From a virus, in the IMG/VR virus record IMGVR_UViG_3300011113_000471, positions 1-20,195 of that record: DNA of 20,195 nucleotides. One strand, written 5' to 3'. This document shows positions 2,326 through 9,706 of this stretch, piece by piece. The notes under the pieces were generated by a model. It did not search any database. It was not told the origin of the DNA and saw only the letters and a program-made list of their open reading frames with translations. The position numbers and the translations under genes are program-made. The first letter of the stretch is position 1. Every line of letters begins with the position of its first letter.

Positions 2326-2505
2326 ATGGCTGGCCATCCATCCACCACACGGTGGCCGATTATCCAACCTGCTGCTGCATGCGGAGTGTCATTGCCGCTT
2401 AGACGGTTTGCATTTGCTGACCAAGCGAATGCCCTGCTTAAGGTCGTTACGCGGGATGGAGCGATAGAAACGCTTATCGCGTCAATTAAAATGTGGCGTC
2501 CATAG
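2326..2505 (+). CDS. Possible 59-residue protein antisense in the capsid-gene leader
   Basis: The 196-bp gap between two leftward genes contains a rightward ATG-to-TAG frame of 59 codons. Its C-terminal half reads plausibly (RRFAFADQANALLKVV, then GAIETLIASIKMWRP). It ends 20 nt inside the 3' end of the nuclease gene on the other strand. No SD or promoter is evident, and its orientation is opposite to its neighbours, so it may be chance. No leftward gene was found in this gap. Confidence 0.2.
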   Translation: MAGHPSTTRWPIIQPAAACGVSLPLRRFAFADQANALLKVVTRDGAIETLIASIKMWRP

Positions 2506-3016
2506 GGTTGGCCACCAGCTCCGATTGGGTGGCGACATAAGATCGATAACCCTTGATCGTCTCGATCCGATGCGGGGCGATGATTATCTCACGGGCTATC
2601 ATTCCGCGATAGGTGTACGGACCGGGGAAAGTACCCGTCATCAGCACATAGAAATCAATCGCGCTCGTTTTCACGCTGTCCTTCCTAGCATCCACAAGCA
2701 GCTTTCCAGTCTCATACTTGGTCGTCTTCACATCGATGCGATATCCCGGCGGCGGCGGGATTGTCGCGTCGTAGAACGGATGCGGGGGTGGGCGGTCGGT
2801 ATCCAGATCGGGATACACATTGAACAAGCGACAGAAAGCAATCTCACCAGCTATCCCCTCCAAATCCACCGTCAACGGCGACTCCGCGCTGATCTTCAGA
2901 TTCGCCACATTGAAATGGCGATTGTTGCCGTTGCGATGCTTAGCGACAAAGTGGGCCAGCTTCTGCTCGCAGTAGGTGAGAGTAATAGTTTGACCAATTT
3001 CAATTTTATTTAGCAT
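2486..3016 (-). CDS. PD-(D/E)XK-type nuclease-like protein
   Basis: The protein is 176 residues from the ATG at 3016. A TTG at 3022 could add two residues. The fold signature is an early helix with Glu (LEGIAGEIAFCRLF, about residues 52-65), an Asp (FYDATIPPPP), then YRIDVKTTKYETGKLLVD, whose D-x-K gives the catalytic strand, followed by DFYVLMTG and a later hydrophobic strand. This order (E, D, DxK) is typical of PD-(D/E)XK nucleases of phages and restriction systems. Substrate and role are unknown. A processing or Holliday-junction-type function, or host-DNA degradation, are options. It lies between the HTH protein and the capsid gene in the leftward block. Its upstream spacer holds short direct repeats that may regulate it. 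Confidence 0.65.
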   Translation of the reverse strand: MLNKIEIGQTITLTYCEQKLAHFVAKHRNGNNRHFNVANLKISAESPLTVDLEGIAGEIAFCRLFNVYPDLDTDRPPPHPFYDATIPPPPGYRIDVKTTKYETGKLLVDARKDSVKTSAIDFYVLMTGTFPGPYTYRGMIAREIIIAPHRIETIKGYRSYVATQSELVANPMDATF

Positions 3017-3078
3017 GGTCAAAAAGGCGGAAAATTTTTGAGGGGGGTATCGTAAACGAAGCCCACCCGCAAAGGGGG

Positions 3079-3950: not shown

Positions 3951-4616
3951 ATGAACGTCCATTTAACCCTAAAGTCCGCAAACGCGAAAACCGGGCCTAT
4001 TCCGGTTTCCACCTCATCATCCGTCACTTGTGCCGACGACTGCCCTTTCAAAGCGAAAGGTTGTTACGCTAAGGGCGGACCGCTTGCCCTTCACTGGTCT
4101 AAGGTAACCTCAGGCGAGCGTGGCATCGATTGGCAATCCTTCATCAAACAAGTCCGCGCTTTCCCGGCCGGGCAGTTGTGGCGACATAATCAGGCCGGAG
4201 ATTTGCCCGGTATCGGCAACGCAATTGACGCAACCGCCCTTTCGCAATTGACGGCCGCAAACGAAGGAAAGCGCGGTTTTACCTATACGCACAAGCCACC
4301 GACGGGCAGCAATCTGTCCGCCCTGCGCGCAGCAAATGCGGCCGGATTTGTTGTCAATCTGTCCGCCAATTCCGTCAGTCATGCCGACACCCTTGCCAAG
4401 CTTGGCCTTCCGGTTGCGGCCGTTGTCCCTCAGGAAAGCCCGGACCGTTTCACGACACCCGAAGGAAACCGAGTTGTCGTCTGTCCGGCCCAAAGGGTTG
4501 ACGGTATTTCCTGCGACAAGTGCCGATTGTGCGCGAAAGGCAACCGTGGCTTCATCATCGGTTTTAAACCACACGGCGCAGGCTCAAAGGCAGTCAATCA
4601 AATCGCGAGCAATTGA
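3951..4616 (+). CDS. Conserved phage protein with two cysteine clusters (DUF7227-like)
   Basis: The protein is 221 residues from the ATG at 3951. The open frame extends upstream to 3873, but that part is Pro/Leu/Cys-rich and unlike the family. The N-terminus LTLKSANAKTGPIPVST is followed by a cluster with C27, C31 and C38 (CADDCPFKAKGCYA) and the block GPLALHWSKVTSGERG. Near the C-terminus is a second cluster, C178, C188, C191 and C194 (SCDKCRLC). From memory this is a common phage protein family of unknown function, I believe DUF7227. The cysteines could bind zinc or an iron-sulfur cluster, and I infer no reaction. It opens the rightward early operon. The start is preceded by CATCAAATC and not by an SD. 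Confidence 0.75.
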   Translation: MNVHLTLKSANAKTGPIPVSTSSSVTCADDCPFKAKGCYAKGGPLALHWSKVTSGERGIDWQSFIKQVRAFPAGQLWRHNQAGDLPGIGNAIDATALSQLTAANEGKRGFTYTHKPPTGSNLSALRAANAAGFVVNLSANSVSHADTLAKLGLPVAAVVPQESPDRFTTPEGNRVVVCPAQRVDGISCDKCRLCAKGNRGFIIGFKPHGAGSKAVNQIASN

Positions 4617-6124: not shown

Positions 6125-6195
6125 GACCGGCCCATCCTCCGCGCTTCATTCGCAAGAGTGGAGCGAAAGGGTAGGCCACCTATCCGCATCTAAGC

Positions 6196-8255: not shown

Positions 8256-8503
8256 GCCGCAATCTATTCGCCCCGCCCAAGTTCAAGGTGCAGGTCAGCG
8301 GCGCGATTGGCTGGAGCGACTTGAAGGAAAGGGTCGTGAGCTATCGAACCCTCGAATACCCCACGCGCAAGGAGGCTGAATCTGTCGCCAAGGAACTAAA
8401 CCCCGGCGAATTCACGCAGGGTCGGATTCGCGTTGTCCCGGTCGAAATGAGCGAGGACTACGATGTCTATCCAACGCCGGAGCGGACCAAAACTAACCCA
8501 TGA
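8252..8503 (+). CDS. Small hypothetical protein
   Basis: The protein is 83 residues. It is predominantly beta (FKVQVSGAIGWSDLKERVVSY, then GRIRVVPVEMSEDYDV) with one helix between (RKEAESVAKELNPG). It probably folds as a small alpha/beta domain. No family is recognised. Start ATGA overlaps the preceding stop and is preceded by GGAGG, 9 nt away. Its stop in turn overlaps the next start. Confidence 0.6.
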   Translation: MSRNLFAPPKFKVQVSGAIGWSDLKERVVSYRTLEYPTRKEAESVAKELNPGEFTQGRIRVVPVEMSEDYDVYPTPERTKTNP

Positions 8504-8772
8504 GAACAATCCGAGAACTCCTGTCCGACATCGACGATGAGCTTCTGCTCATGGACGGCTTCGATGACTGCATCATTGGGATATGCCATAGCTTCGGCGG
8601 CGAGCCGGTCGTCGCCTACGACTATGAGAAGGTTATCGCGCAGCTTCAAAGCCACGGCATGACCTACGAGGAAGCGGTCGAGTACCATGAGTTCAATCAG
8701 GCCGGAGCCTACGTTGGCGAACTAACCCCCGTCTTCATCGTCCGCATCGAAAATCCAAAATCCGCCGGATAA
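8500..8772 (+). CDS. Conserved phage protein ('GMTYEEAVEYHEFNQ' family)
   Basis: The protein is 90 residues. After an acidic helix it has FDDCIIGICHSFGGEPVVAYDYEK, then GMTYEEAVEYHEFNQAGAYVGE and TPVFI. This block recurs in phage proteins of many hosts and is a well-known conserved hypothetical family, found from memory. No catalytic role is established. It is the last gene of the early operon and is followed by the structured gene-free region. Confidence 0.75.
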   Translation: MRTIRELLSDIDDELLLMDGFDDCIIGICHSFGGEPVVAYDYEKVIAQLQSHGMTYEEAVEYHEFNQAGAYVGELTPVFIVRIENPKSAG

Positions 8773-8909
8773 CTTTTTATCCGACGAGAGGTAGGCCACC
8801 AACCCCATTCCGGCGCATCCAAAACCATGCCATCCAACCGATTCGATTCTAGCGCATCAAAACCCATGTCCGCTGTCATCACACCATCTCGCAATCAAAA
8901 CGCATCAGC

Positions 8910-8960
8910 GCGTCGTTTAGAGCGTTTGAGCGGCATTCGAACCGAGCAACTGAGCGACGC
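8910..8960 (+). ncRNA. First hairpin of a structured region
   Basis: GCGTCG (8910-8915) pairs with CGACGC (8955-8960). Inside, TTG/CAA and CGG/CCG (8926-8949) form a second short stem across a 2x2 internal loop. This is a weak-to-moderate fold on its own. It gains weight because two stronger hairpins follow directly. Confidence 0.35.
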
Positions 8961-8971
8961 ATCTTCTTCTT

Positions 8972-9039
8972 TTTCATCCCGAACGGTTGCGGCACCGCCC
9001 TCAAAGGCGGGGAGCAAGCATACCGTTTTCGGGATGAAA
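8972..9039 (+). ncRNA. Long 12-bp stem hairpin, possible antiterminator arm
   Basis: TTTCATCCCGAA (8972-8983) pairs perfectly with TTCGGGATGAAA (9028-9039). CGGT/ACCG (8984-8987 with 9022-9025) extends the stem past a TT bulge. Inside, CCGCC (8995-8999) pairs with GGCGG (9006-9010). The 3' arm includes ATGAAA, which is also needed by the next hairpin. Confidence 0.55.
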
Positions 9040-9079
9040 CCACCCCTCCTTGGGTTTTTAATCCCAAGGGGGGTTTCAT
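9034..9079 (+). terminator. Terminator-like hairpin ending the early operon
   Basis: CCTTGGG (9048-9054) pairs with CCCAAGG (9063-9069) around TTTTTAAT. The stem extends through CCCC/GGGG and, past bulges, to ATGAAA (9034-9039) with TTTCAT (9074-9079). TTTT follows at 9079-9082. It sits after the last early gene and shares its outer strand with the preceding hairpin. Confidence 0.55.
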
Positions 9080-9105
9080 TTTAGTGAAATAGATGGCGAG
9101 TGTAG

Positions 9106-9151
9106 CTAACCGTGGAAGAGTTGAATCTAACCGAGAAAATAGAAATCTAAC
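9106..9151 (+). repeat. Phased CTAAC repeats before a coiled-coil gene
   Basis: CTAAC starts at 9106, 9127 and 9147, that is 21 and 20 bp apart. The first two copies extend to CTAACCG. The array lies 25-70 bp before the ATG at 9176, where a regulator would bind. The factor is unknown. Confidence 0.4.
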
Positions 9152-9165
9152 TTCTGGGTCTTGAC

Positions 9166-9170
9166 AGGAG
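9166..9170 (+). promoter_or_regulatory. Ribosome binding site that fixes the start at 9176
   Basis: AGGAG at 9166-9170 ends 5 nt before the ATG at 9176, a normal SD arrangement. A TTG at 9161 would lie upstream of the SD itself and is rejected. This SD contrasts with the SD-less starts of the first early genes. Confidence 0.6.
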
Positions 9171-9175
9171 TTGGT

Positions 9176-9706
9176 ATGAACCGCAGACTAGAGTTCGTTA
9201 TGAGCTATTTACCTTCAGGAAAAACCCCTCGAACCATGTTCAGTCAGATGCCCCCGAAGCGGCATGACCTGGACCCGAGCAAGTCGGAAGTTCTGGCCTA
9301 CATCGGCCAGGAGATGGGCTGCGACTTGGCGGCGGCGATACGGGCCTTCAATTCGATGCGGCATCCCAAGTGTCGGGTGCTGGTGTTCGATAAGATTGAG
9401 CGGCAGTGGAAGGGATGCGAGTTTCGGCCAGCCGACGCTGAGACAAGCGAGCTGTCGATCATCCGTGAGCATCGCGCTTTTGAGCGGCAGTTGGCCGTTT
9501 TGAAGTCAACCGTGCGCCGGTTGCAAGATGATGTTGAATGCCTCAAGCGGAAGACTGCAAAGCGAACCAAGGGCAAAAAGGGCGATGACAGGAAGGCCGA
9601 TGAACCGCATGAGGAGCCGCCCGCTGAGGGTCAGCCAACGGAACCAGACCGACCATCACTGTCTGAGGAGTTTGCCAAGTTGTTCCCTGAATTAGCCGAC
9701 AAATAA
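9176..9706 (+). CDS. Hypothetical coiled-coil protein
   Basis: The protein is 176 residues from the ATG at 9176, placed by AGGAG. The N-terminal half is a small globular part (SEVLAYIGQEMGCDLAAAIR, then CRVLVFDKIERQWKG). Residues about 100-130 are a heptad coiled coil (AFERQLAVLKSTVRRLQDDV). A Lys-rich then acidic Pro/Glu linker leads to a final helix (LSEEFAKLFPELADK). The linker suggests a flexible scaffold or partner-binding protein. No family is recognised. It is followed after 9 nt by another coiled-coil gene. Confidence 0.65.
   Translation: MNRRLEFVMSYLPSGKTPRTMFSQMPPKRHDLDPSKSEVLAYIGQEMGCDLAAAIRAFNSMRHPKCRVLVFDKIERQWKGCEFRPADAETSELSIIREHRAFERQLAVLKSTVRRLQDDVECLKRKTAKRTKGKKGDDRKADEPHEEPPAEGQPTEPDRPSLSEEFAKLFPELADK

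Follow-up and report, generated by a model that had tools for sequence, protein, structure and literature searches.

In trp-type leader-peptide attenuators, segments of the transcript pair 1-2, 2-3 and 3-4, and a small ORF runs into them. The put RNA of HK022 lies just after the early promoters and suppresses downstream terminators. Ingham et al. reportedly described, in 1995, terminators without poly-U in the early region of the actinophage phiC31. In bacteria, RNA-seq of 13 genomes described hairpin clusters as terminators for which poly-U is unnecessary (Gupta and Pal 2021, PMC8355165). The locus studied here belongs to an uncultured phage represented by the 20-kb IMG/VR virus record IMGVR_UViG_3300011113_000471, and the window refers to the whole stretch of 20,195 nucleotides analysed. 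It carries three hairpins (P1, P2 and P3) that adjoin one another, with at least two hairpins within 15 nt at an operon end, as in the cluster definition of PMC8355165, and P2 has the GC-rich hairpin of the canonical intrinsic (L-shaped) terminator. P1-P2-P3 is an undescribed, strongly conserved and well-supported structured RNA element of lake phages, absent from Rfam, and we give about even chances to its being an unusual hairpin-cluster terminator/insulator of an undescribed RNA family.

Position and folding of the hairpin cluster

In the left part of the window, minus-strand ORFs include 162-992, 1042-2367 and 2486-3022, and the larger ORFs from 3873 rightward lie on the plus strand. Terminator-like hairpins were also observed at 995-1022 of the window and, in L307, at 4034-4066, the latter followed by TTTCGTTT. 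A stretch of 427 nt without a gene of annotated size separates the end of the upstream block at 8772 from the gene at 9200-9706 (hereafter MSYL). No match to the MSYL family was found in Pfam or PHROG, and the predicted structure of its protein (pLDDT 73, pTM 0.39) shows N-terminal helices and one long helix. This gene is followed, in order, by those for HTH_17, RecT-like, exonuclease-like, ThyX, helicase-like, SSB and Holliday-junction resolvase proteins. The element is thus located at the boundary of two co-directional gene blocks, 5′ of recombination/replication genes. The initial annotation had placed the region between an early operon and a replication block, and the separation of two co-directional gene blocks is supported.

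The same annotation had pointed to three complementary hexamers, all of which were confirmed in the sequence (TTTCAT 8972-8977, ATGAAA 9034-9039 and TTTCAT 9074-9079); a fourth copy, GTGAAA at 9084-9089 (GTGAAAT to 9090), had been overlooked. A repeat search recovered both the perfect 12-bp stem (arms 8972-8983 and 9028-9039) and the terminator-like stem (arms 9044-9057 and 9060-9073) described previously, together with the shared-arm pairing 9034-9045/9068-9079. The second TTTCAT is paired in P3 with GTGAAAT 9084-9090 across a UUUA loop, and the 5′ arm of this hairpin overlaps the foot of P2. The 201-nt region folded at −91.3 kcal/mol, in comparison with −60.2 ± 4.2 kcal/mol in dinucleotide shuffles (z −7.5, 0 of 200 as stable), which indicates that the folding of the region is not due to chance. 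A terminator scan of the region resulted in three matches against 2.6 expected, a non-significant difference, P2 being the longest and most GC-rich of them.

Table 1. Coordinates of the features at the boundary between the two gene blocks of the window.
Feature	Position	Strand	Description
Final annotated-size gene of upstream block	8500..8772	+	phrog_13182, unknown function
Small ORF, 85 codons	8827..9084	+	Spans P1 and P2, stop within P3
Conserved stretch 5′ of P1 (CGATTCGATTCTAGCG ... GAGCG)	8837..8960	+	Gapless over 120-125 nt, lineages A-H
P1, long hairpin	8972..9039	+	Outer stem 8972-8983/9028-9039, 12 bp; covarying helices 1, 2
P1, inner part		+	ACGGT/ACCGT, then GC-rich tip CCGCC 8995-8999/GGCGG 9006-9010
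Shared arm b (ATGAAA)	9034..9039	+	3′ foot of P1; could lengthen P2 via 9074-9079
P2, terminator-like hairpin	9042..9074	+	Core 9044-9054/9063-9073, then TTTCATTTT; covarying helix 3
P3, hairpin GTTTCAT-TTTA-GTGAAAT	9073..9090	+	Arms paired in 13/13 lineages
Promoter-like sequence	9161..9189	+	TTGACA 9161-9166, 17-nt spacer, CAGACT 9184-9189; 10 nt before ATG 9200
Downstream gene (MSYLPSG..., 168 aa)	9200..9706	+	Always 3′ of element

Conservation of the element among related phages

Relatives were collected through the downstream protein (47 loci, and then the best 80 of 350 with its alignment), the upstream gene phrog_13182 (80 of 190) and a tip pattern (85 stretches), these sets being overlapping, and were assigned on visual inspection to 13 lineages (A to M). 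Three hairpins precede the MSYL start codon in all 13 lineages where the contig is long enough. Their arms differ among lineages, as illustrated by P3 (TTTCA in A and B; CTTAT in C, D, F and H; TTATC in E; CTCCC in G, I, K, L and M; TATGT in J), and yet stay paired: over the 13 hand-listed lineages, 249 Watson-Crick and 4 G-U pairs were counted in 255 cells (101 of 103 in the P1 outer stem and 87 of 87 in P2, all Watson-Crick; 61 Watson-Crick plus 4 G-U of 65 in P3), a count that leans towards pairing because the arms were picked from folds. When 3′ arms were swapped between lineages, pairing fell to 0.41 (P1 outer), 0.64 (P2) and 0.66 (P3). In addition, RNAalifold analysis of a MAFFT alignment of lineages G, I, K, L and M revealed double-sided changes in 12 of 29 pairs. 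In an alignment of 31 sequences, covariation reached 0.638 vs 0.193 in shuffled and at most 0.12 in slid alignments; this alignment was fitted to the covariance model described below and so leans towards structure, and the P2/P3 region of clade A is poorly placed in it. The plus strand folded better than the minus strand in 18 of 20 elements. The tip of P1 and its internal bulges are conserved, and most members of K, L and M have GCAA or GUAA tetraloops in P1. Two kinds of P1 tip, CACCGCC...GGCGG and TCCGCCCCGTCAGGAGGCGG, were observed (window 8993-9010; L151, L154, L263), joined to different outer stems across lineages as if swapped by recombination.

A covariance model, R1, was built from the alignment of lineages G, I, K, L and M, with no sequence from A-F, H or J and hence without the lineage of the window. 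Its single match in the window was at 8974-9073 on the plus strand (32.8 bits, E 1.4e-6). When 12 phage records were searched with R1, some of them containing sequences of the training lineages, each gave a single site (E at most 0.1), always at this same locus; lineage J was recovered weakly (E 0.076), and in two of the 12 records an extra overlapping match on the opposite strand (E 0.28 and 0.42) was taken as noise. The element is single copy, with a fixed position and an orientation that favours a plus-strand RNA. No match at the gathering score was obtained for it in a search of Rfam 15, where the E-value matches to mir-605 and Ysr251 were at chance level, and no DNA or protein relatives were found in the cultured-phage collection. 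Only one contig of the genome collection contains both the MSYL gene and the element, a 3.3-kb contig (L294) in a Pirellula MAG, one of 294 genomes of that phylum; all its genes are phage genes, and since the contig looks wholly phage, its host assignment is uncertain. Record IMGVR_UViG_3300042456_000346 (L051, L125, L240) carries an element near either end, the two differing in version. These were not taken as a duplication: L125 breaks off immediately 5′ of the start codon and its counterpart is located close to the far end, so that this contig is probably an assembly join of variants.

Regarding the start of the downstream block, a TTGAC-17-NANNNT sequence occupies a fixed place between P3 and the ATG, about 10 nt before the latter, in nearly every lineage, and the same site was found in L024, L033, L134, L144, L148, L258, L262, L281 and L290. 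Scored singly, such hexamers were generally no better than shuffled sequence, and the putative promoter is credited because its position is shared in otherwise divergent sequence. If used, it would generate a nearly leaderless downstream mRNA. Three direct CTAAC repeats (9106-9110, 9127-9131 and 9147-9151; spacing of 21 and 20 bp, or roughly two turns of the helix) adjoin the −35-like hexamer on its 5′ side, and GCTAAC-like motifs are present there in most lineages; these repeats are possible binding sites for a regulator. In L262 (lineage J), the promoter-like TTGACGCGAGCAGAAGTGAA occurs twice in tandem, about 100 nt or less 5′ of the MSYL start. Upstream of P1, no conserved promoter-like sequence was found across lineages.

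Coexistence of the stems and the shared arm

The hairpins formed with the shared arm had initially been regarded as mutually exclusive structures, competing for the same strand as in attenuators and riboswitches. Folding analysis did not bear this out, as the minimum-energy structure holds P1, the P2 core and P3 together. Transcripts starting at 8900 and ending at positions between 9040 and 9160 were folded, and the foot pair of P1 (8975:9036) showed a probability of at least 0.999 at every length, and the core pair of P2 (9050:9067) reached 0.993 once its 3′ arm was made (end 9070) and 0.998-0.999 thereafter. On the contrary, the shared-arm extension pair (9036:9077) had a probability of about 0 in transcripts ending at 9070 to 9160. 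P1 and the P2 core are thus both present at 0.99 or above at all lengths, a result that leaves the proposed competition unsupported; one structure being overwhelmingly more stable at all transcript lengths, which had been named as an outcome that would refute the switch, is essentially what was found. In energy, P1, P2 and P3 together amount to −63.0 kcal/mol, and extended P2 plus a 1-4 closing stem to −59.4 kcal/mol, the alternative being about 3.6 kcal/mol worse. The two stems overlap in only six bases at their feet and do not exclude each other: the shared arm adds at most six pairs to P2, whose formation is not blocked by P1.

Covariation among relatives, the other check that had been suggested, strongly supports P1-P2-P3, but the alternative pairings are lost in several lineages. 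The foot of P1 pairs perfectly in A, B, C and J; in D this pairing is broken, and in F and H it is disrupted in part. Perfect shared-arm pairing is seen in A-D, a nearly perfect one (partly broken) in F, and a broken one in E, H and J; lineages in which either is broken still keep the three hairpins. Complementarity among all four segments is present in lineages A, B and C, where it involves the arms of P1 and P3. In G (L154), I, K, L and M it sits instead between P2 and P3, and there a nested single hairpin beats two separate ones by 1.4 to 6.7 kcal/mol, the two folds being about equal in energy in L279. The repeated arms therefore recur in different hairpins, with no particular alternative pairing conserved. 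Altogether, the cross-complementary arms are repeated arm sequences of neighbouring hairpins and not a two-state switch in the phage of the window; in lineages G (L154), I, K, L and M, a P2/P3 rearrangement is energetically possible in the folding model and may have a role.

Candidate roles and known systems

We infer that the region is transcribed and that the element acts in termination and insulation. P1-P2-P3 would be a cis-encoded cluster of RNA hairpins ending the early transcript: P1 would fold first behind the passing RNA polymerase, P2, with its neighbour P3, would then form, and transcription would be stopped or strongly slowed. P1 would cap the 3′ end of the early RNA, and the next block would be insulated, with its own promoter-like sequence 70 nt further downstream. 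The TTTCATTTT stretch directly after P2 in the window and another hairpin followed by TTTCGTTT in G009, a related phage, were counted in favour of this proposal. Against it counts the conserved tip of P1, which exceeds the needs of a terminator. The position equivalent to TTTCATTTT is rich in U in part of the lineages, G, K, L and M being exceptions; as no lineage has a U tract after P3 either, a canonical intrinsic terminator is not conserved. Furthermore, the nesting of P2 and P3 in G (L154), I, K, L and M implies that the geometry of the proposed stop is not constant. The weak recovery of lineage J by R1 also counts against the proposal.

The overlapping small ORF may make the putative termination sensitive to translation. 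An in-frame ATG was found in 24 of 27 representatives and frame +1 is open in 26 of 27, with many stops in the other plus-strand frames. Stop-creating changes in the ORF frame numbered 0 against 7.8 expected (spanning tree, P ~4e-4, the recombinant-looking L266 left out), and were as expected or more in other frames; the spanning tree and possible recombination make this P rough. On the other hand, the part of the ORF 5′ of P1 showed no third-position excess (1227/1141/1093), and its synonymous fraction was 0.243, where 0.276 would be expected in the absence of selection; the downstream gene, used as a control, gave 0.78. On codon positions, a conserved protein encoded by the 5′ stretch was rejected, although the frame stays open; an open frame with no selection at the codon level suggests that translation rather than the peptide may matter, or that nucleotide constraints keep the frame open. 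Clade A relatives mostly have AGG in place of the first ATG, with an in-frame ATG 13 codons later, and no ORF of comparable kind was recognised in J, K and M. Overlap of the ORF with P1 is no evidence in itself, since P1 is open in most frames anyway. The motif GTAGGCCA has seven sites in the window vs 0.26 expected, including 6171-6178 and 8791-8798; two sites lie 17-28 nt before start codons (6196 and 8827), and related phage records likewise have the motif ahead of genes.

These data could also fit a translation-coupled attenuator, in which ribosomes on the small ORF hold P1 and P2 open and transcription continues, and in which failed or stalled translation lets the hairpins form and end transcription, whatever the peptide sequence. 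The start codon, the open frame, the depletion of stop changes, the indifference to the peptide and the GTAGGCCA motif shared upstream with gene 6196 agree with such a mechanism, but the first ATG missing from most of clade A, the lineages in which the ORF was not recognised, the open frames across P1, the rough P and the occurrence of GTAGGCCA inside genes as well make it rather unlikely. The switch initially proposed, with P1 or extended P2 on the nascent RNA setting termination or read-through, is very unlikely: the cross-complementarity in A, B and C and the alternative P2/P3 pairing, which is the joint minimum-energy fold in five lineages (about equal in L279), would suit it, but P1 and the P2 core coexist, P1 is no bar to P2, and the pairings it requires are lost in D, E, H and J, and in part in F. 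In addition, a promoter-like sequence before the next gene in nearly all lineages means that read-through is not obviously needed for the downstream block. We also consider unlikely a phage RNA family with a terminator controlled by small-ORF translation, the peptide being unconstrained, and with four-segment cross-complementarity that was either retained or arose anew, from unrelated sequences, in different hairpins.

Alternatively, the element might be a structured non-coding RNA with its own role (protein binding, decoy or action in trans) ended by P2/P3. The conserved tip and bulges of P1, the tetraloops of K, L and M and the conserved 120-nt block 5′ of P1 would be explained by such an RNA, which is nevertheless improbable in view of the lack of a conserved promoter-like sequence upstream of P1, the swapping of P1 tips between lineages and the fixed place at one operon boundary, which fits a role in cis. 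We assign a very low probability to a DNA element, either a replication origin or a cruciform site, in place of an RNA: the locus lies upstream of recombination/replication genes and the slope of GC skew changes nearby in some genomes, but no consistent skew extremum coincides with the element in six phage records, its reading direction relative to the genes is fixed, and the G-U pairs of P3 and the better folding of the plus strand point to RNA. A replication origin defined by GC skew was rejected as inconsistent among these six records.

The element offers a clear example of clustered hairpins at an operon boundary for which selection on pairing is strong and no U tract is conserved, a combination that makes U-independent termination testable. 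It also illustrates how adjacent hairpins with repeated arms can look like an attenuator. Like trp-type attenuators, the locus has four segments able to pair 1-2, 2-3 and 3-4 and a small ORF running into them; unlike them, its 1-2 pairing and its terminator core coexist, the ORF is not conserved in all lineages, and no regulatory codon run was identified in the small ORF. It shares with HK022 put the nature of phage-encoded cis RNA hairpins near an operon boundary, but it is found where a block ends, right at a terminator-like hairpin. The phiC31 early terminators would resemble it as hairpin terminators without U tails in a phage early region. With hairpin-cluster or V-shaped terminators (WebGeSTer classes; PMC8355165) it has in common adjacent hairpins at an inter-operon boundary and no need for a poly-U tail; it differs from them in its long, bulged and conserved P1, its single position per related phage record and arms that co-vary across lineages, termination being putative here.
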